Of a DNA stretch of 42,032 bases, positions 17,577 through 27,141 are shown piece by piece (position 1 is the first letter of the stretch; every line of letters begins with the position of its first letter). The stretch is from NCBI GenBank assembly GCA_026388985.1, contig JAPLIS010000009.1, forward strand, positions 1 to 42,032, in the 5' to 3' direction. A program made the translations under genes and the position numbers. The DNA comes from Candidatus Babelota bacterium (GTDB lineage Bacteria > Babelota > Babeliae > Babelales > Vermiphilaceae). A model generated the notes under the pieces. It did not search any database, was not told where the DNA came from, and saw only the letters and a list, made by a program, of their open reading frames with translations.

Positions 17577-20300
17577 TTATTCTAATCCCTGTTTTTTACA
17601 TTGTATGTGCACTGTTGAGGCATGTACACCTAAAAATCGCGCAATTGCGTGTTGACTGTGGAATGCTTGCCATAAGAGTCTCATTTTATCAGAATCTTTC
17701 AATGCTTTTTTACCTAATTGAGCAATCAGCATGAGATTTTCGCGATCAGTTTCTGTTAATGTGTCATTAAGGGTAGCACTTTTGCTGCTATTGCTCGTTG
17801 CTTTATTATGTATGATGGCATGAATTTTTTTGTGCAGAGCTTGCATGCTTTCCGGTGCGGCGTAATAAAGTGCGCGTTTGTTTTTATCGGTAATCGTTGC
17901 AAGATGATGTAATGGATTAAGGGTGAGGATCTTTTCTATGATTCCTTCTATCAAAAATAGGCATTCGTCAATAGGCCATGTTGCAACAGAAGGTATTGTT
18001 AATTTGTTATTTTTAATGCACTGATAGAGCTTTTTATCAAGCATTCCTGTATTGAGCATTTGTTGTACTGATCCACTTATGGTGACTATAATATGCGCGT
18101 TGCTCTGCTTTTTTTCTTCATCATCATTAAATGGGGTATAGATGCCAGATTCTATAAAGGCAGCCAGTTTTTGTTGCCCATCGCTATGCATGAATTGTAT
18201 GTTTTTTATGACAATAAGAGCATCTTTTTCACCCTTTTCTAGAAGGTTATGTCGCTGGCGCGTGGTATGCTTGGAAAGCCTATTGCCAAAAATAAGATGA
18301 GCGCTCTGGGGCGTTTTTTCTTTATGTTCAATAGGTATAACATGTATGGTTTTAGTAGTATAGAGCTGTTTTAAAAAAGATATGATATCTGCGCTATCAT
18401 CTTCATGAGCATTTATCAAAAGCCCGTGGGGTTTGAGTAATGCTTTAAGGATGTTGATTTTGAGATTGAGAGTGTATTCGCGCATGGAGGGTATGTAGCT
18501 GTTTAGCTGTATTCCTATCATGGTTGTTTGTAGAAAAAAGAGATAATGCCAGTCGGCCGGATTATACAACATATGGTCATGTGCCTGTAGTACCTGTGGT
18601 ATAGACGCATGGTGTAGCGTTATAAGGGCTGATTTTCTGTTTAGTTGCATTGAGCCAGATACTGCTATTAGCTGTTTATCATGAGGAGAATGGTAGAGTA
18701 AGGTCTGGGGTATCTGTGACAGCATACTCGTATGGGACATTTTTGTTATTTTTTTTACTAGCGGATGGCCTTTTTGATGATTAAGCGATAGGGGTAAAAG
18801 TTCTGATGCGTAGTGGTTGCCCGTGATAAAAAGATTATTGTGATAAAACAGTAAGCCACATTTTTGTTGTTGATGTGCGGGTATAAAGGGGCGCAAGCTT
18901 TCTTTAAAAAGGGCTATTTCTTGATTGGCACGGTATATTTTTTCATGCATATGATGCGTACGTTTAATGAGAGTATTAGTTTTATTTGTATGAACAAGGT
19001 TAATGCTGCTGCTCAAATAATGTGCAAACATAAGCATCGCATCTTGTTCTATTTTGCTATAAAAAGTGTGTGAGCTGCGGGCATTTTTTTTTATAATAAT
19101 AGAAGCGGACATATAATTGTTGCGGTAAAGTGGTAAAAAAACATCCGCATCTAGTATGTCAAGGCTATTCAAAAGTTCTTTGTTGAGTTGCGAGCTTGTA
19201 TGAAAATTGTTAAAGGCAATATCATCATACACAATAATGGGGAGCTGCTGTATATGATCAGTGCCGATCTCTCTGTTGGCATTGATCAGTGAATCAATAA
19301 TGATAGAGGGAGTTTTAAGGTGTTCGGCAGGGTGATTTTCTTGGGGGAAATGGAGTAGTACCTTGCCGGTCGCAAGAGAAAATGAACTGATAAAAAAATG
19401 TTCTGTTATATACTGCAATTCATGAATGGTATGTGCATGACTCAGCTGCTCAAGTATATTTTTAAAAAGAGTAGGATTTTTTTTGTAGCCTAAGCTTACT
19501 ATCTGGTCGGTCCAGTTCATAAAGCGCAACATAAGAAGATGTTTGAGTGCATAGTTCATGGTAATTATTAAAAGAAGAGTTGCCAAGCCGACAATAATAT
19601 AGAGGTTTTGTTCCAAGATGCTAAACGTGATTGCTAGCCCTTGCAAAAGTTCAATAGCAAGGTAAGGACACAAAAAGCAGAATATAAAAATGCGCAGCTG
19701 CTTGCGTACTATTTTAGGGAGTGTTGATGCGCGAGCATGGTGTAAGATAATAAAAGCCACCGGCACTATAAGTACAATAGCTAGATACAGAGTTACCATC
19801 CTGACCATAGCCACTTCAAGTGGTGGATTATAGAGTATTGTTTGCGCAAGCAGTTGGCTTTCTTTGGTAGTGAGGCTAATGCTAAAAAAAGCACAATAGG
19901 CAAAATAAAAGAGAAATATATAGGCGATGCCTGTCAGTACTGTTTGCACCACCCCTAAGGGAGCATTTTTTTTGATGAGCTTTTGAATAAAGAGAGCAAG
20001 GTATTGATGTTGCAATCCAATAGAAGCCCAGCCAATCCTAATAAAGAAAGTGACTATCGCATAACTAGCATTAGGGGTGATTGTTTTATGAAATAATTTT
20101 ACAGCCCAGGCACTATCGCTAAAAAGTGAAAAAAAGAGTGTGGCCATTAAATAGTAAGGGGCTGAGCTAGCCATAGAAGAGCGTGCTTTTTTGTAGCCGA
20201 TGGTCGCAATAAAAAATAATTTTATACAAAAAGAAGTAAGAACAATAAAGAATACTATATACGGGATACAGGCATAAAGATAAGAAAGTTGATAGTCCAT
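17577..20300 (-). CDS. 7TM sensor with degenerate NtrC-type AAA domain and Fis HTH (paralog 1, no peptide partner)
   Basis: 907 residues with the architecture of the two genes to its right but much more diverged. About seven hydrophobic helices fill the first 260 residues. Next come a GAF-like region (ILDADVFLPLYRNNYMSASI), a helical linker, a PAS-like region (KCGLLFYHNNLFITGNHYAS) and a sigma-54-activator-like segment. There the Walker A position reads NAHEDDSAD, Walker B reads DALIVIKNIQFMHS, and the usual Arg finger region reads DKKLYQCI. A Fis-type HTH ends the protein (AIARFLGVHASTVHIQCKK). Only 52 bases separate it from paralog 2, so the two are probably co-transcribed. Function inferred: membrane-bound transcription regulator. 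Confidence 0.75.
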   Translation of the reverse strand: MDYQLSYLYACIPYIVFFIVLTSFCIKLFFIATIGYKKARSSMASSAPYYLMATLFFSLFSDSAWAVKLFHKTITPNASYAIVTFFIRIGWASIGLQHQYLALFIQKLIKKNAPLGVVQTVLTGIAYIFLFYFAYCAFFSISLTTKESQLLAQTILYNPPLEVAMVRMVTLYLAIVLIVPVAFIILHHARASTLPKIVRKQLRIFIFCFLCPYLAIELLQGLAITFSILEQNLYIIVGLATLLLIITMNYALKHLLMLRFMNWTDQIVSLGYKKNPTLFKNILEQLSHAHTIHELQYITEHFFISSFSLATGKVLLHFPQENHPAEHLKTPSIIIDSLINANREIGTDHIQQLPIIVYDDIAFNNFHTSSQLNKELLNSLDILDADVFLPLYRNNYMSASIIIKKNARSSHTFYSKIEQDAMLMFAHYLSSSINLVHTNKTNTLIKRTHHMHEKIYRANQEIALFKESLRPFIPAHQQQKCGLLFYHNNLFITGNHYASELLPLSLNHQKGHPLVKKITKMSHTSMLSQIPQTLLYHSPHDKQLIAVSGSMQLNRKSALITLHHASIPQVLQAHDHMLYNPADWHYLFFLQTTMIGIQLNSYIPSMREYTLNLKINILKALLKPHGLLINAHEDDSADIISFLKQLYTTKTIHVIPIEHKEKTPQSAHLIFGNRLSKHTTRQRHNLLEKGEKDALIVIKNIQFMHSDGQQKLAAFIESGIYTPFNDDEEKKQSNAHIIVTISGSVQQMLNTGMLDKKLYQCIKNNKLTIPSVATWPIDECLFLIEGIIEKILTLNPLHHLATITDKNKRALYYAAPESMQALHKKIHAIIHNKATSNSSKSATLNDTLTETDRENLMLIAQLGKKALKDSDKMRLLWQAFHSQHAIARFLGVHASTVHIQCKKQGLE

Positions 20301-20352: not shown

Positions 20353-23082
20353 CTAAGATATAATAAGATTATATGCTTTACAACGCCTATTTACCGATGA
20401 CCGGTTAACACCCAAAAAAGTAGCAATTTGATTCTGGTTTTTAAAGGTGCTCCATAGCAATGTCATGGCTTGTTGATTTTTTAATGCATTTTTGCCCAAG
20501 CGAGCAATGGCCGTAAGCTCTGCATTATGTTCACCGTACGCAGGATTAAATTGGGTTTGCGCATTGATTTCAGGATGCTGAGATTTGTGTTCAAGAATAT
20601 AACGCACCCTTTTTTGGAGCTCATGTAGGCTGGTGGGCCGTTGACTGTTAAGTTTACTTTTATCTTTATCAGTAAGGGTAAGAATGTCTTTGAATGTGCT
20701 TGATTTTAGTTCCTGTTGCGTAAAGCCTTGCGCCACAGATTCAAGCTCTTCTTGTGATAAGGTTGCTAGTGGCGGCATGGTGAGAGTTGTTGCTTTGAGT
20801 TGATTAAACAGTTCAAGAGAAAATAGCCCATCTTGCGCTAAAGATGCCAAGTTTTGATCTGTTGAACAGATAACACGTACATTGCTGCTTTCTTTACGGT
20901 CACCTTTAAAGGTGCGGAATAAGCCATAGCGAATAAATTCTGCCAAATATTTTTGCGTTTCATTGTCCAAAAAGTGAACATTTTTAATGAGTAAGGTGCC
21001 AGTATCATGCAACTGTTCCAGTAGGGGGCGTTCGATCGGGGTGACCCCAAAGATAGGGTTAATCCCAAATAGTTTAATGGCAACATCTACATTTTTACAC
21101 GGTGCTTGCAGCGTAATGGTATACAGTGTTTCACGTAGGCTGATATGGTGCAACAGTTCAACAGTGGCTGGTAAATCCTGTTCAGGCATAGAAAGCAGGA
21201 GAGCCTTTTTGCTTAACGCTGTTTTGAGCAGTTCTATTTTAAAATTAAGAAACAGTTCGCCTGCGCCGGGAATCAGTTGATTTATTAATTTTCCCGATTT
21301 TGTGGTTTCAAGGTAGAGCAAATAATCACGTTCAGAGGGGTCTTGTAGTTTTTCGATTTGATTTTTAAGGATATCGGAAATATCAGGGTAAGATATGGTG
21401 ATAATAATATTATTGCTTTCTAAATTGGGCACGCCTGAAAGTATAAGCATGTTGCCATCAGCATCAGTTGTTTTGCCGGTCTGCGGGGCTTTATATTCTT
21501 CTACCTGTTGGGCAAGCAGTTTGCAGGCACGGGCAACAGGGTGGCCCTGTTGTGTGTTGAGGTTAACTTTAAGCATCTCTTTTGCTGCCTGGTTACCAAA
21601 GGTAAAGAGGCGATTTTTGTAAAATAAAACCCCAATGTTTTTTTGTTGGGGGGAACGTACAAATGAACGAATACTTTCTTTGTACTGGTTTATTTCTTGA
21701 TGCTTACGGTACAGTTCTTCGTTAAGTTCTTTTTCTTGTGCAATAAGAGTGTCTATGTTTTGTTTTTTGAGTAAATTGATAATATTGCCTAAATAGCTGG
21801 CAAAAATGAGCATTTCATCATGTTCAATTTCTGAATAAAAGAGAGTAGGGCGTGCATCACGTTCAATAATAACATACGCTATCAGTTGCTCTTTTTCATA
21901 AATAGGTAAAAATATATCGGCGTTAATCATGTTTAAAAAATTAAGTATATAGGTGCGTGTTGGGTGCTGCTCATAAAAGTTACTAAAAGCAACTTCGTCA
22001 TAGATCATGATTTTATTAATACGTAGTTCTTGGCAGATGGTATCTTTATGGGTGGTCAAAAAAGTTTCAACCAGCGATATGATCTGATTTTGTGACGGTG
22101 TATACACTATTTTTTGATCAGATGGTTGGCTTGAACGCATATACAAGTTTATTTTGCTAAAAGGGACGTCAAACGTTTCTTTAAAGAACTCTTGTGAAAC
22201 ATGATTCAGTTCTTGTTCGTTAGAAATATGGCTCAGGCGGGTTAAAATAATTTTGAAGTTATCTATAAAGTTAATATCGATTGTCGACTGTATCTTGTCT
22301 TTGAGGTTCAAGAATCGCAGCCCCATTATTCTGCGCATAGAGTAAAAAACAGCATAGGTTATTAAGATATTTGATAGGTTTACAAAGATATAATTTGTAT
22401 TAATCCATTCTTCTAGGGGGGATATAAAGAGCGATATAATTTGAATAAAGTCAGAAGACCAGAGTGGTAATATGATGCCCAGAATAAAAAGCTTTATTTG
22501 TTTTTTTAAAATGCGCGGCATGCTGCTTGCGCGCAGTTTGTTAACGGTGATAAGCACGCTTGGGAGCATGAGAAAAAAAAGACAATAGATAGATGTTAAA
22601 GAACACAGGGTCATTTCAAGCCAATGTTTTTCAGAAAAGCTGGCACAATTAATATCAATTATGGCAATCATGATATAACAGGTAAAAAGTGCGCTACTTA
22701 TAGTTAAAAATATTTTTTGGCTTAAGGTAGTAAGGCTATTTTTTTGGCAGGTTAAGCTTTCAAGAAAAAGGGCGAGTGCTTGATAGAGCATAATGGTAAA
22801 TGCCCATGCAAGCCGTAAAAAGGTATTATAGAGGCGGAAATCTATATAGTGGCTGAATGGTGTTAGTAGCCATGCAATATCATAGACAAGTGATGATAAC
22901 AATACCAGTATAAGAAAATAAATAGGAAGCGGTGATGTTTCTGATTGTAATGTTCTGTGGGCAAGATAGGCAAGAAAGCCAACTTTAAGAGAAAAAGAAA
23001 TCATAAATACAATAAAAAGAAGCTGTGGGCTGCCAGCTATCAGTGCTAGTGTGTTAAAAAAATGAGTTATTGTATCTATCAT
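20353..23082 (-). CDS. 7TM peptide-receptor-like regulator with ATPase-dead NtrC domain (paralog 2)
   Basis: 909 residues. Seven hydrophobic segments lie at about 19-41, 53-75, 88-108, 122-143, 157-180, 197-220 and 230-250. A GAF-like domain (about 271-440), coiled coil (440-475) and PAS-like domain (476-575) follow. A bEBP AAA-like domain (590-790) is recognised by KLFGINPIFG, GTLLIKNVHFLD, NVRVICSTDQNLASLAQDG and TMPPLATL. Walker A is missing (SMPEQDLPAT), the Walker B acids DE are KN, GAFTGA is absent and the Arg-finger position is LELFNQL. The Fis-type HTH is QIATFLGVNRSSVNRRCK. From residue 254 on it differs from paralog 3 at only 21 positions. A 28-codon ORF is transcribed divergently upstream. 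It likely reads an external or peptide signal; this is inference. Confidence 0.8.
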   Translation of the reverse strand: MIDTITHFFNTLALIAGSPQLLFIVFMISFSLKVGFLAYLAHRTLQSETSPLPIYFLILVLLSSLVYDIAWLLTPFSHYIDFRLYNTFLRLAWAFTIMLYQALALFLESLTCQKNSLTTLSQKIFLTISSALFTCYIMIAIIDINCASFSEKHWLEMTLCSLTSIYCLFFLMLPSVLITVNKLRASSMPRILKKQIKLFILGIILPLWSSDFIQIISLFISPLEEWINTNYIFVNLSNILITYAVFYSMRRIMGLRFLNLKDKIQSTIDINFIDNFKIILTRLSHISNEQELNHVSQEFFKETFDVPFSKINLYMRSSQPSDQKIVYTPSQNQIISLVETFLTTHKDTICQELRINKIMIYDEVAFSNFYEQHPTRTYILNFLNMINADIFLPIYEKEQLIAYVIIERDARPTLFYSEIEHDEMLIFASYLGNIINLLKKQNIDTLIAQEKELNEELYRKHQEINQYKESIRSFVRSPQQKNIGVLFYKNRLFTFGNQAAKEMLKVNLNTQQGHPVARACKLLAQQVEEYKAPQTGKTTDADGNMLILSGVPNLESNNIIITISYPDISDILKNQIEKLQDPSERDYLLYLETTKSGKLINQLIPGAGELFLNFKIELLKTALSKKALLLSMPEQDLPATVELLHHISLRETLYTITLQAPCKNVDVAIKLFGINPIFGVTPIERPLLEQLHDTGTLLIKNVHFLDNETQKYLAEFIRYGLFRTFKGDRKESSNVRVICSTDQNLASLAQDGLFSLELFNQLKATTLTMPPLATLSQEELESVAQGFTQQELKSSTFKDILTLTDKDKSKLNSQRPTSLHELQKRVRYILEHKSQHPEINAQTQFNPAYGEHNAELTAIARLGKNALKNQQAMTLLWSTFKNQNQIATFLGVNRSSVNRRCKAYNLIIS

Positions 23083-23112
23083 TACTACGTTACTCTTGTT
23101 GAATGCATGGTA

Positions 23113-23141
23113 TTGCTATTTGGGCTGCAGCTCATTATACT
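23113..23141 (+). promoter_or_regulatory. Divergent promoter pair between paralog 2 and its small peptide ORF
   Basis: On the plus strand TTGCTA (23113-23118) and TATACT (23136-23141) are 17 bases apart and point to the small ORF at 23199. Read on the minus strand, a consensus TATAAT overlaps the same spot (23134-23139) and points to the receptor gene, so the two promoters face away from a shared -10 region. Both features are preserved at the second locus. Confidence 0.6.
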
Positions 23142-23198
23142 AATAGTGGTTTTTTGTTGGAATTATAAGGTTTAATACATATTTTTTAGGAATATTTT

Positions 23199-23285
23199 AT
23201 GGAAAAAGTGACGGCCTTGAGAACACTTGTTGTATCTGTTTATCCTGTTGAAACTACTCGGCCTCCGTTTCCTCCACATAACTAA
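23199..23285 (+). CDS. 28-residue peptide, divergent partner of receptor paralog 2
   Basis: A 28-codon ORF begins MEKVTALRTLVVSVYPVE and ends in the Pro-rich tail RPPFPPHN. AGGA lies seven bases before the ATG. The ORF at 26292 has exactly the same length, start (MEK), position and spacing. The two share M1, E2, K3, L10, S13, V17, E18, P22, F24 and P25 only. The coding part (about 59% of bases identical by my hand alignment) is less conserved than the 63 bases before it (53 of 63). No signal peptide is seen. I infer a secreted or processed signalling peptide; a leader peptide or chance ORF pair are the alternatives. Confidence 0.6.
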   Translation: MEKVTALRTLVVSVYPVETTRPPFPPHN

Positions 23286-23296
23286 TATAGTTAAAT

Positions 23297-23340
23297 TTCA
23301 TCCTACCACACTTTGTCTGGCAAAACAAATGCCGAAATTG
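23297..23340 (+). promoter_or_regulatory. Conserved box downstream of the peptide ORF (copy 1)
   Basis: TTCATCCTACCACACTTT, one variable base, then TCTGGCAAAACAAATGC recurs at 26394-26436 with very few changes, although it is non-coding. It contains a weak inverted repeat TTTGT/ACAAA. It could be a leftover of the duplication or a regulatory site. Confidence 0.4.
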
Positions 23341-23381
23341 ATTTTGGATGGGGGCAAGTAAAAATTTTATTTTAAAGACAG

Positions 23382-23417
23382 AAGGTCATATTAATTAATG
23401 TGACCTTATCTTTTTTT
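23382..23417 (+). terminator. Terminator between the peptide ORF and receptor paralog 3
   Basis: A stem AAGGTCA (23382-23388) and TGACCTT (23401-23407) with an AT-rich loop is followed by ATC and seven Ts on the plus strand. It would end the small-peptide transcript and could also serve the minus-strand receptor gene, whose stop is at 23455. TTATC-T(7-8)-AGATCT is duplicated just after it. Confidence 0.65.
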
Positions 23418-23454
23418 AGATCTCTTATCTTTTTTTTAGATCTATTGTGAGCCC

Positions 23455-26175
23455 CTAGGGCATCGTAAGATTATATGCCTGACACCGTCTATTTACCGAT
23501 GACCGGTTAACGCCCAAAAAAGTAGCAATTTGATTCTGATTTTTAAAGGTGCTCCATAGCAATGTCATGGCTTGTTGATTTTTTAATGCATTTTTGCCCA
23601 AGCGAGCAATTGCCGTAAGCTCTGCATTATGTTCCCCATAGGCAGGATTAAATTGAGTTTGCGCATTGATTTCAGGATGCTGAGATTTGTGTTCAAGAAT
23701 ATAACGCACCCTTTTTTGGAGCTCATGCAGGCTGGTGGGCCGTTGGCTGTTCAGTTTACTTTTATCTTTATCAGTGAGGGTAAGAATATCTTTGAACGTG
23801 CTTGATGTTAGTTCTTGTTGCGTAAAGCCTTGCGCCACAGATTCAAGCTCTTCTTGTGATAAGGTTGCTAGTGGCGGCATGGTGAGAGTTGTTGCTTTGA
23901 GTTGATTAAACAGTTCAAGAGAAAATAGCCCATCTTGTGCTAAAGATGCCAAGTTTTGATCTGTTGAACAGATAACACGTACATTGCTGCTTTCTTTACG
24001 GTCACCTTTAAAGGTACGGAATAAGCCATAGCGAATAAATTCTGCCAGGTATTTTTGTGTTTCATTGTCCAAAAAGTGAACATTTTTGATGAGTAAGGTG
24101 CCGGTATCATGCAACTGTTCCAGCAGGGGGCGTTCGATTGGGGTGACCCCAAAGATAGGGTTAATCCCAAATAGTTTAATGGCAACATCTATATTTTTGC
24201 ACGGTGCTTGCAGCGTAATGGTATACAGTGTTTCACGCAGGCTGATATGGTGCAACAGGTCTACCGTAGCTTGTAAGTCTTGTTCAGGCACAGAAAGCAG
24301 TAATGCCTTTTTGCTTAACGCTGTTTTGAGCAGTTCTATTTTAAAATTAAGAAACAGTTCGCCTGCGCCGGGAATCAGTTGATTTATTAATTTTCCAGAC
24401 TTGGTGGTTTCAAGGTACAGTAAGTAATCACGTTCAGAGGGGTCGTGTAGTTTTTCGATTTGATTTTTAAGAATATCGGAAATATCAGGGTAAGATATGG
24501 TGATAATAATATTATTGCTTTCTAAATTCGGCACACCTGAAAGTATAAGCATGTTGCCATCAGCATCAGTTGTTTTGCCGGTCTGCGGGGCTTTATATTC
24601 TTCTACCTGTTGGGCAAGTAGTTTGCAGGCACGGGCAATAGGGTGACCCTGTTGCGTGTTGAGGTTAACTTTAAGCATTTCTTTTGCTACCTGGTTACCA
24701 AACGTAAATAGGCGATTTTTATAAAATAAAACCCCAATGTTTTTTTGTTGTGGAGAACGTACAAATGAACGAATACTTTCTTTGTACTGGCTTATTTCTT
24801 GATGCTTACGATACAGTTCTTCGTTAAGCTCTTTTTCTTGTGCAATAAGAGTGTCTATGTTTTGTTTTTTGAGTAAATTGATAATATTGCCTAAATAGCT
24901 GGCAAAAATCAGCATTTCATCATGTTCAATTTCTGTGTAAAATAGGGTAGGGCGTGCATCACGTTCAATAATAACATACGCTATCAGTTGTTCTTTTTCA
25001 TAAATGGGTAAAAATATATCGGCATTAATCGTATTTAAAAAATTAAGTATATACGTGCGTGTTGGGTGCTGTTCATAAAAGTTACTAAAAGCAACTTCGT
25101 CATAGATCATAATTTTATTGGTACGTAGCTCTGTGCATATAGTATCTTTATGGGTGGTTAAAAAAGTTTCAACCAATGATATGATCTGATTTTGTGAGGG
25201 TGTATACGCTATTTTCTGATCAGATGGTTGGCTTGAGCGCATATACAAATTTATTTTGCTAAAAGGGACGTCAAACGTTTCTTTAAAGAATTCTTGAGAA
25301 ACATGATTTAGTTCGTGTTCGTTGGTGATATGGCTTAGGCGGTTTAAAATAATTTTGAAGTTATCTATAAAGTTAATATCGATTGTCGACTGTATTTTGT
25401 CTTTAAGGTTCAAGAATCGCAGCCCCATTATTCTGCGTATAGAGTAAAAAGCAGCATAGGTGATTAATGTGGTTGATAAACTCATGAACATATAATTTCT
25501 GTTTATCCAATGTTCAAGGGAAGATATAAAAAGCGATATGATTTGGATAAAGTCAGAAGACCAGAGTGGCGCTATTATGCCTAGAATAAAAAGCTTTATT
25601 TGTTTTTTTAGAATGCGGGGTATGCTATGTGCGCGAAGCTTATTAATAGCAATAAAGACGCTTGGCAGCATGAGTACAAAAAGAGTGTAAATAGAGGTAA
25701 GAAGGCCAAGGGTTGATGTAATTTTTTTATTATAATCGATACAGAGAAGGTCAAAGATACTGATACCCATATAACATAAAAAAAACAGACAGCTTGCGCT
25801 CAACACTATTTTTTGACGTAAGGTAAACGTATTTTTTTGATCGGTTAAGCTTTCAAGAAAAAGGGCAAGAGCTTGATAAAAGGTTATGGTAAATGCCCAT
25901 GCAATATGTACAAAAGTTTTATAGATATTAACGTTTATATAGCTTTTAAATGGTACAAGTAGGTAGTTAATATCGCAGATAAGTGATGCAAGTAGCACCA
26001 GCATAAAAAAATTAATAGGGCGAGGAGAGGTTTCAGTTTGCAGTGTTCTATGGGCAAGATAAGAAAGAAAGCCACATTTAAGAGAAAATGAGAAAACAAC
26101 AATAATAAAAAGAAGTTGCGGACTGCCGATTATCAGTGCTAGTGTGTGGACAAAGTGAGTTATTGAATGTACCAT
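23455..26175 (-). CDS. 7TM peptide-receptor-like regulator with ATPase-dead NtrC domain (paralog 3)
   Basis: 906 residues with the same domains as paralog 2. Residues 251-906 (23455-25425) align without gaps to the corresponding part of paralog 2 with 21 differences, none of which restores an ATPase motif. The N-terminal seven-helix region is only about two-thirds identical, with the largest differences around TM4 and its flanking loops (residues about 110-165). The divergent 28-codon ORF and the spacing to it are the same. The HTH (QIATFLGVNRSSVNRRCQ) is nearly unchanged, so both receptors probably bind the same DNA targets while sensing different inputs. That conclusion is inference. Confidence 0.8.
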   Translation of the reverse strand: MVHSITHFVHTLALIIGSPQLLFIIVVFSFSLKCGFLSYLAHRTLQTETSPRPINFFMLVLLASLICDINYLLVPFKSYINVNIYKTFVHIAWAFTITFYQALALFLESLTDQKNTFTLRQKIVLSASCLFFLCYMGISIFDLLCIDYNKKITSTLGLLTSIYTLFVLMLPSVFIAINKLRAHSIPRILKKQIKLFILGIIAPLWSSDFIQIISLFISSLEHWINRNYMFMSLSTTLITYAAFYSIRRIMGLRFLNLKDKIQSTIDINFIDNFKIILNRLSHITNEHELNHVSQEFFKETFDVPFSKINLYMRSSQPSDQKIAYTPSQNQIISLVETFLTTHKDTICTELRTNKIMIYDEVAFSNFYEQHPTRTYILNFLNTINADIFLPIYEKEQLIAYVIIERDARPTLFYTEIEHDEMLIFASYLGNIINLLKKQNIDTLIAQEKELNEELYRKHQEISQYKESIRSFVRSPQQKNIGVLFYKNRLFTFGNQVAKEMLKVNLNTQQGHPIARACKLLAQQVEEYKAPQTGKTTDADGNMLILSGVPNLESNNIIITISYPDISDILKNQIEKLHDPSERDYLLYLETTKSGKLINQLIPGAGELFLNFKIELLKTALSKKALLLSVPEQDLQATVDLLHHISLRETLYTITLQAPCKNIDVAIKLFGINPIFGVTPIERPLLEQLHDTGTLLIKNVHFLDNETQKYLAEFIRYGLFRTFKGDRKESSNVRVICSTDQNLASLAQDGLFSLELFNQLKATTLTMPPLATLSQEELESVAQGFTQQELTSSTFKDILTLTDKDKSKLNSQRPTSLHELQKRVRYILEHKSQHPEINAQTQFNPAYGEHNAELTAIARLGKNALKNQQAMTLLWSTFKNQNQIATFLGVNRSSVNRRCQAYNLTMP

Positions 26176-26205
26176 TGCTACTTTGCTCTTGTTAGATACA
26201 TACTA

Positions 26206-26234
26206 TTGCTATTTGTGCTTCAGGACATTATACT
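26206..26234 (+). promoter_or_regulatory. Divergent promoter pair between paralog 3 and its small peptide ORF
   Basis: TTGCTA (26206-26211) and TATACT (26229-26234), 17 bases apart, precede the small ORF at 26292. The distance from the -10 to the ATG is 63 bases including the -10, the same as at the first locus. An overlapping minus-strand TATAAT faces the receptor gene. Confidence 0.6.
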
Positions 26235-26291
26235 AATAGTGGTTTTTTGTGTGATTTATAAGGTTTAAGTCATAGTCTTTAGGAGTATCTC

Positions 26292-26378
26292 ATGGAAAAA
26301 ATGAACACTGTAATGCCACTTCTTTTATCTTTAGATACAGTAGAAAATGGAACTCCCGGCTTTCCGACTGAATATTAA
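26292..26378 (+). CDS. 28-residue peptide, divergent partner of receptor paralog 3
   Basis: A 28-codon ORF begins MEKMNTVMPLLLSLDTVE and ends GTPGFPTEY. AGGAG lies seven bases before the ATG, a better site than many genes here. It has the same start, length and C-terminal P.FP motif as the ORF at 23199 but little else in common. Its 3' flank keeps the box seen downstream of the first copy. It is 85 bases ahead of nth on the same strand, with no clear terminator in between. The divergent layout resembles the short-peptide/regulator pairs of Gram-positive bacteria such as rgg-shp; no sequence relation is claimed. Confidence 0.6.
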   Translation: MEKMNTVMPLLLSLDTVENGTPGFPTEY

Positions 26379-26393
26379 TTAATCTAGCTAAAA

Positions 26394-26436
26394 TTCATCC
26401 TACCACACTTTATCTGGCAAAACAAATGCAAAAATT
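26394..26436 (+). promoter_or_regulatory. Conserved box downstream of the peptide ORF (copy 2)
   Basis: Second copy of the box at 23297-23340. It lies between the peptide ORF and nth, so it is also in a position to affect nth. Confidence 0.4.
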
Positions 26437-26463: not shown

Positions 26464-27141
26464 ATGGTCAATATCTATCCAGATACACAATCACGAGCGT
26501 TAGCGATAATTGATGTGCTGCGTAAAGTAACCAAAGACATGCAAAAACCGGGGGCGGTTGAAATTATCAAGGTATATGGAAAAGATCCATTTTTAGTATT
26601 AGTGAGCTGCATATTGAGCCTGCGCACTAAAGACACCGTATCAGTATCTGCATCAAAAAGACTCTTTGAGCACGCAAGAAAGCCGCATGAATTAATGCGG
26701 CTTTCTCTTTTAGAAATACAAAAATTAATATATCCTGTCGGCTTTTATCGGCAAAAGGCTCAACAGTTAGTTGAGCTTTCAGCTCGCATAGTACATCACT
26801 TTAATGGCGTAGTACCTTGCGGCGAATCTGATTTACTTTCATTACCTGGTGTGGGCCGTAAAACCATGAATTTGGTTCAGGCAGAAGGCTTTGGCATGCC
26901 GGCATTGTGTGTTGATACGCATGTGCATCGCATTTCAAATAGACTGCGGCTTGTGCAAACAAGCACACCGCAAGAAACAGAATATGCGCTCAAAGCGTTA
27001 TTGCCACAAGCTTATTGGATAGAATATAGCCGCTTGCTGGTTACCTGGGGTCAAAATATATGCACACCTACGTTGCCACACTGTTCAGTGTGTCCCTTAG
27101 CGCCAGTATGCCCACAGATAGGTGTTATCCGTAAAAGATAA
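26464..27141 (+). CDS. nth: Endonuclease III (DNA glycosylase/AP lyase)
   Basis: 225 residues. It removes oxidised pyrimidines and cuts at abasic sites in base-excision repair. The helix-hairpin-helix LPGVGRKT carries the catalytic Lys133, and VDTHVHR carries the catalytic Asp151. The C-terminal [4Fe-4S] ligands are Cys200, 207, 210 and 216 in the standard C-x6-C-x2-C-x5-C spacing. The usual SAQ(T) segment reads LSLRTKD. The ATG at 26464 is weakly served by a ribosome binding site. Confidence 0.93.
   Translation: MVNIYPDTQSRALAIIDVLRKVTKDMQKPGAVEIIKVYGKDPFLVLVSCILSLRTKDTVSVSASKRLFEHARKPHELMRLSLLEIQKLIYPVGFYRQKAQQLVELSARIVHHFNGVVPCGESDLLSLPGVGRKTMNLVQAEGFGMPALCVDTHVHRISNRLRLVQTSTPQETEYALKALLPQAYWIEYSRLLVTWGQNICTPTLPHCSVCPLAPVCPQIGVIRKR

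Follow-up and report, generated by a model that had tools for sequence, protein, structure and literature searches.

A stretch of DNA from Candidatus Babelota bacterium (GenBank assembly GCA_026388985.1, contig JAPLIS010000009.1, positions 1 to 42,032 of the forward strand; the whole 42,032 nucleotides are called the window here) carries two copies of a module in which a 28-codon open reading frame (ORF) is divergent from a large gene for a regulator with seven predicted transmembrane helices (7TM) and a C-terminal helix-turn-helix (HTH). The named relatives of the window genome are Candidatus Dependentiae, Babeliales and TM6. Dependentiae live inside single-celled hosts, and their many pairs of a tiny peptide and a 7TM-HTH receptor look like an undescribed bacterial "pheromone" system. 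The peptide is probably exported and sensed by the receptor, which would be a membrane-tethered one-component regulator acting at the peptide promoter. The two modules consist of the following features.

20353..23082, minus strand: receptor R2, 909 amino acids, with 7TM, GAF/PAS-like, degenerate AAA and Fis-type HTH parts assigned by homology to the R3 model
23455..26175, minus strand: receptor R3, 906 amino acids, same architecture as R2 (predicted structure)
25423..26121, minus strand: 7TM sensor domain of R3 (residues 19-251), which has diverged from that of R2
23458..23625, minus strand: Fis-type HTH region of R3 (residues 851-906), where conservation across the family is highest
23199..23285, plus strand: peptide precursor gene 1, MEKVTALRTLVVSVYPVETTRPPFPPHN, cognate to R2, at a homologous position family-wide
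26292..26378, plus strand: peptide precursor gene 2, MEKMNTVMPLLLSLDTVENGTPGFPTEY, cognate to R3
23188..23191, plus strand: ribosome-binding site AGGA of peptide gene 1
26281..26285, plus strand: ribosome-binding site AGGAG of peptide gene 2
23113..23141, plus strand: promoter TTGCTATT-N15-TATACT (TTGCTA-17-TATACT) of peptide gene 1
26206..26234, plus strand: the same promoter, TTGCTATT-N15-TATACT (TTGCTA-17-TATACT), of peptide gene 2

The original prediction, made from the letters of the window, had described two 28-codon ORFs beside divergent receptors, and both are present. Each has a Shine-Dalgarno site, an identical TTGCTA-17-TATACT promoter and a P.FP-type tail, as had been described, and the start of each peptide gene lies 116 nucleotides from the start of its divergent receptor gene. 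It is also correct that the peptides have only 10 of 28 residues in common while the adjoining DNA is better conserved: nucleotide identity is 57% within the frame and exceeds that value on either flank. The proposed signature of an MEK start and a P.FP-type tail survives in part. The tail, in the form of a C-terminal P[PG], is conserved in relatives, but the MEK start is not.

The prediction had called for a search of related genomes for short ORFs divergent from receptor homologues. In a first set, a divergent ORF with a ribosome-binding site and Pro-Pro (PP) in its last 12 residues was found at 59 of 77 receptors, against 1/77 on the other strand, 0.7% in dinucleotide shuffles and 4/173 upstream of other genes (Fisher p about 5e-36), a pattern far above chance. 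With corrected starts and more loci, P[PG] occurs within the last 14 residues at 74 of the 98 receptors whose N-terminus is present. Three extra peptide ORFs were found by eye (L041, 13 amino acids; L046; L078), and about 13 further receptors have a divergent secreted-type ORF without a P[PG] tail. At one locus (L084, genome G055) the place of the P[PG] tail is taken by a divergent, secreted, Gly/Ser-rich ORF. Overall, about 90/98 receptors have kept a divergent short ORF. Small frames broken in relatives while their flanks are kept would have refuted the prediction; they were looked for as well, and the prediction withstood this check, since the ORFs are kept and evolve as coding sequence. 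Across seven close pairs the pooled proportion of synonymous differences (pS) is 0.59 and that of nonsynonymous differences (pN) is 0.28 (chi-square p about 1e-11), which indicates that the frames are translated and constrained. Judged by these substitutions, the peptide ORFs are coding and under constraint.

The precursors have several recurring properties. Exact non-overlapping repeats of at least 5 residues are found in 8 of 85 distinct precursors (expected 0.14), among them D[DE]FPPMG x3, KPGPDVPSF x3 and SVFPPIS x2. Most precursors contain a hydrophobic stretch of ~15-20 residues, and the leaders are hydrophobic in most relatives. Several relatives encode long precursors that resemble a classical signal peptide followed by a soluble proline-rich tail. 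No Pfam family was matched by the ten peptides tried. The peptide ORF MIHNKHIFKFLANTFYVTVLAFAYNINIQSNSDLLKELSAVENKNSFETETPRMSPPTPPDY at locus L069 (genome G073, locus GC 27%) is accompanied by the promoter, a ribosome-binding site and a terminator-like hairpin. At L065, L048, L074 and L189, two similar peptide genes stand in a row beside one receptor; therefore the peptide gene also duplicates on its own.

Peptide tails and receptor sensor domains have changed together. With the other four receptor regions controlled, tail similarity correlates with 7TM identity over 59 pairs (partial rho 0.27, permutation p 0.001, in a test that models shared ancestry incompletely), and it has no correlation with the GAF, PAS, AAA or HTH regions. 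Covariation of the hydrophobic leader with the 7TM domain is weaker (partial rho 0.14). Tails of the form [RKN][WYFM]PP, which mostly belong to second tandem copies, fall together on the receptor tree (6 changes versus 11.5 when shuffled, with 0/500 shuffles as low), and tail type tracks receptor clade, not genome. The expectation that the peptide diversifies in step with its receptor is thus supported, with the tails covarying with the 7TM domain only. R2 and R3 are 94-99% identical in amino acids past residue 250 and 56% identical at residues 51-150; they thus differ mainly in the 7TM part, which the original prediction had not noted. Their synonymous divergence (dS) is 0.7-1.1 in residues 1-250 and 0.15-0.39 beyond. 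Because identity and dS step together, the comparison implies that the output part of the receptor has been homogenised and that the divergence of the sensor part has been retained. A tandem pair in a second genome (locus L064) is 100% identical outside the 7TM domain versus 71% within it, and its peptides differ. Over the two genomes, such tandem receptors have 97-100% identity outside the 7TM domain and about 70% inside it.

The two genes expected to encode large 7TM regulators encode proteins of 909 and 906 residues, with seven transmembrane helices predicted for R3. The AlphaFold2 model of R3, built with 74 homologues, has a mean pLDDT of 86. It contains seven transmembrane helices (residues 19-251), GAF-/PAS-like alpha/beta domains, an NtrC-type AAA fold and a C-terminal helix-turn-helix. 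The GAF/PAS-like labels are our assignment from secondary structure, and these parts have no Pfam match. Loop charges indicate an N-out, C-in topology. The AAA part matches NtrX, DmpR and PspF in Foldseek and gives partial Pfam/NCBIfam matches. As in these NtrC-family proteins, the AAA fold is followed by a Fis-type HTH. Unlike them, the receptors lack Walker A, the Walker B DE and GAFTGA in 92/92 family members, and RpoN (PF04552) was not matched in the window genome although control genomes did match. The description of the receptor as NtrC-like therefore applies to its fold, but every catalytic and sigma-54-contact motif is lost in a genome without RpoN. Because of these losses, the receptor is not a working sigma-54 activator and is most likely a membrane-tethered one-component regulator. 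No TPR match was found in it with Pfam, and no kinase domain with Pfam or in the model.

The 7TM domain has no recurrent Pfam match among 70 members scanned, HisKA_7TM included, beyond isolated weak matches of single members, and no PDB sequence match. It was modelled alone after full-length Foldseek had returned AAA proteins only. The resulting model (pLDDT 92) bears a weak likeness to class A peptide G-protein-coupled receptors, with which it has an N-out 7TM bundle in common (TM about 0.5-0.6; best E 7e-4 for CXCR3; TM 0.60 for the kappa opioid receptor). With 8-15% identity and a root-mean-square deviation of mostly 5-8 Å, this is a likeness of topology only and no evidence of homology or peptide binding.

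The system is widespread. Receptor matches were found in 29/29 genomes of the window's family and in 71/104 searched genomes, a few of them weak and confined to the AAA domain, and the receptors are often in tandem. A profile search matched 80/101 genomes of the phylum, of which about 15 were weak AAA-only matches. A pattern scan derived from the alignment returned 60 loci from the GTDB species collection, nearly all labelled Dependentiae, Babeliales, TM6 or unclassified bacteria; the few with other labels are probably mislabelled metagenome-assembled genomes. No relatives were found in viral contigs. Truncated or incomplete receptor copies occur at L083 (8268-9116) and on contigs 15, 16, 21 and 29 of genome G008, and the truncated receptor at L083 has the same upstream peptide as the intact copy. 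Three receptor paralogues are encoded in the window genome (1.18 Mb, 94% complete). Besides R2 and R3 there is a more distant one, which the original prediction had not mentioned.

17577..20300, minus strand: R1, 907 amino acids, 31% identical to R3, its start 52 nucleotides past the end of R2, without a peptide gene

R1 has a long branch in the receptor tree, beside another peptide-less member (L190), and is possibly an orphan or decaying receptor.

The promoter is a further constant of the system. TTG-N-TATA[CA]T precedes 55/86 peptide genes, compared with 2.2 in shuffles and 2 on the other strand, and its -35 element lies a median of 6 nucleotides from the receptor start codon. Within the genomes scanned, every match of the extended forms TTGCTATT or TTGATCTT-N14-16-TATACT is at one of these loci (2/2 sites in the window genome and 6/6 in four relatives). 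Because of this restriction, the sequence TTGNTNTT...TATACT fits a promoter particular to the system, and it is plausibly the receptor's own target.

Each module is probably a self-contained peptide-signalling switch. The proposal draws on ORFs, coding selection, promoter, inactive AAA, tail repeats and covariation that are read from sequence, and on a predicted domain architecture. The precursor would begin with a leader, hydrophobic in most cases, and end in a short tail around P[PG]. It would be exported, most simply via Sec and signal peptidase; the window genome has both Sec and signal peptidase I. The tail, roughly 6-10 residues and in some species in several tandem copies, would be the signal, and the 7TM domain would bind it at the outer face of the inner membrane. 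Sensing after import is disfavoured because an OppA-type binding protein (SBP_bac_5) is absent from the 94% complete window genome. The bound state would be relayed through the GAF/PAS-like domains and the catalytically dead NtrC-type AAA domain to the Fis-type HTH. Of the likely targets, the closest is the conserved promoter next to the receptor start codon, and control there would give feedback on the peptide gene. Tandem duplication, diversification of peptide and 7TM domain, and homogenisation of the output part could then yield several private channels per genome, as R2 and R3 may exemplify.

Several observations count against this mechanism. Export, processing, binding and the direction of regulation are inferred. 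Both window leaders are weakly hydrophobic (the best 12-residue mean is 1.5 in peptide 1) and some type B leaders are even less so, which makes the export route uncertain and the weakest link. About 8/98 receptors, R1 among them, have no recognisable peptide, and in some clades the secreted products are long and lack a P[PG] tail. The covariation test, as said, treats shared ancestry incompletely. Beyond the peptide promoter no regulon emerged: a search allowing two mismatches gave 37 sites versus 22 in a reversed-pattern control, and because this is near chance we claim no further targets.

The DNA around the modules contains other features. A terminator-like hairpin, GGTCATATTAATTAATGTGACC, followed by a T run lies at 23383-23418, between peptide gene 1 and the end of R3, and was noticed by eye. 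A strictly conserved block, TCATCCTACCACACTTTRTCTGGCAAAACAAATGC, stands 3' of both peptide ORFs (23300-23335 and 26392-26430) and is probably left over from a duplicated nth upstream region. A GG-N10-GC motif, TGGCAAAACAAATGC, 3' of both ORFs was considered as a sigma-54 promoter and rejected because the genome has no RpoN; it is taken as duplicated flank. No Rfam family was matched at the locus. Elsewhere in the window, at 502-1828, two secreted-type ORFs have the leader MKKVHFLHTIALLSLSLTG in common and may be duplicated secreted proteins. Downstream of peptide gene 2 lies the following gene.

26464..27141, plus strand: nth-like (endonuclease III) gene, which is next downstream of the peptide gene in 47/86 loci

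Other explanations of the small ORFs have to be weighed against a released signal. The small protein could be anchored in the membrane as a subunit or regulator of the receptor in the same cell, no signal being released. The ~15-20-residue hydrophobic stretch of most precursors suits such a role, and covariation with the 7TM domain is compatible with contact within the membrane. Yet the covariation is greater for the tail than for the leader, tails are present as tandem repeats, and the long precursors of several relatives continue from a signal-peptide-like start into a soluble proline-rich tail, so that we regard a membrane subunit as rather unlikely. The peptide could instead be an output, such as a host-directed effector, an antimicrobial or a toxin, with the divergent receptor sensing another ligand. 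Divergent pairs of regulator and effector are common, the organisms are intracellular and the peptides are of a secreted type. Joint evolution of the tail and the receptor 7TM domain is unexpected if that domain senses something unrelated, and the precursors are very short, with tails kept as 6-10-residue repeats; we consider this account improbable.

The ORF could also be a leader or ribosome-arrest peptide, with Pro-Pro near the stop codon, that controls a downstream gene, usually nth. PP slows ribosomes, nth is the codirectional downstream neighbour at many loci, and a terminator-like hairpin follows the ORF in 14/85 cases versus 0.2 in shuffles. The in-frame tail repeats, the variable distance from PP to stop and the covariation with the receptor are left unexplained by control of this kind, which seems very improbable. 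The specific idea of an nth leader peptide was rejected because 28/86 peptide genes, most second tandem copies included, have only a convergent gene downstream. Finally, the small ORFs might not be genes, and the conserved flanking DNA might be a leftover of duplication. Within the window alone, the flanks are indeed better conserved than the frame. This account is already largely refuted by the order-wide occurrence of the ORFs, a pS well above pN, in-frame tail repeats, ribosome-binding sites and promoters, and we give it almost no weight.

Exported-peptide signalling of the kind preferred here works like Agr, ComX/ComP and SHP/Rgg and is a member of none. As in established pheromone systems, the precursor gene is linked to the receptor gene, and peptide and sensor domain coevolve, with the reservation that the null models shared ancestry incompletely. 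ComQXPA likewise has a short precursor, a polytopic sensor and a diversified specificity cassette. It differs in having a histidine kinase, ComP, and a ComX that ComQ isoprenylates, whereas the window locus has neither a kinase domain nor a ComQ-type gene. Agr also encodes its precursor beside a polytopic membrane receptor, whose sensor domain is as divergent as the peptide and whose output part is conserved (PMC5007282). AgrC, in contrast, is a histidine kinase with the response regulator AgrA, while here the HTH output is in the same protein. The AgrD thiolactone is made by AgrB, and no AgrB-like neighbour is seen here, its place being taken by nth or another receptor; nor is there a universal Cys, most tails having none. 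SHP/Rgg and other RRNPPA systems resemble the present one in a tiny divergent or adjacent gene, a short hydrophobic precursor with a C-terminal mature peptide, a one-component transcription regulator and, in some precursors, tandem copies of the mature signal (PMC11343458). Their receptors, however, are cytoplasmic TPR proteins that bind peptide re-imported by Opp, unlike the 7TM receptor here, which has no TPR match and is encoded in a genome without an OppA-type binding protein.

No description of such a system in Dependentiae was found in the literature searched, which comprised open-licence papers only, so that this absence is weak evidence. Quorum-sensing mechanisms were stated to be absent in a paper on a Dependentiae isolate (PMC6561590), and five transcription regulators were predicted in Babela massiliensis (PMC4378268). 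Well-studied peptide pheromones are mainly from Gram-positive Firmicutes and act through kinases or cytoplasmic TPR receptors (PMC10075063). Tentatively, the modules may represent a new class of bacterial cell-cell communication, in which a 7TM, membrane-tethered and sigma-54-independent transcription factor reads Pro-Pro-tailed peptides. Such a class would be old and widespread in Dependentiae, could let the bacteria sense their own number inside one host cell, and would keep channels private to a species or paralogue through diversification of peptide and 7TM domain. If true, it would define a type of receptor without a kinase relay and would make dozens of natural peptide-receptor pairs available for studies of specificity. 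It would also reveal communication in an intracellular phylum with few known regulators, where none was known.

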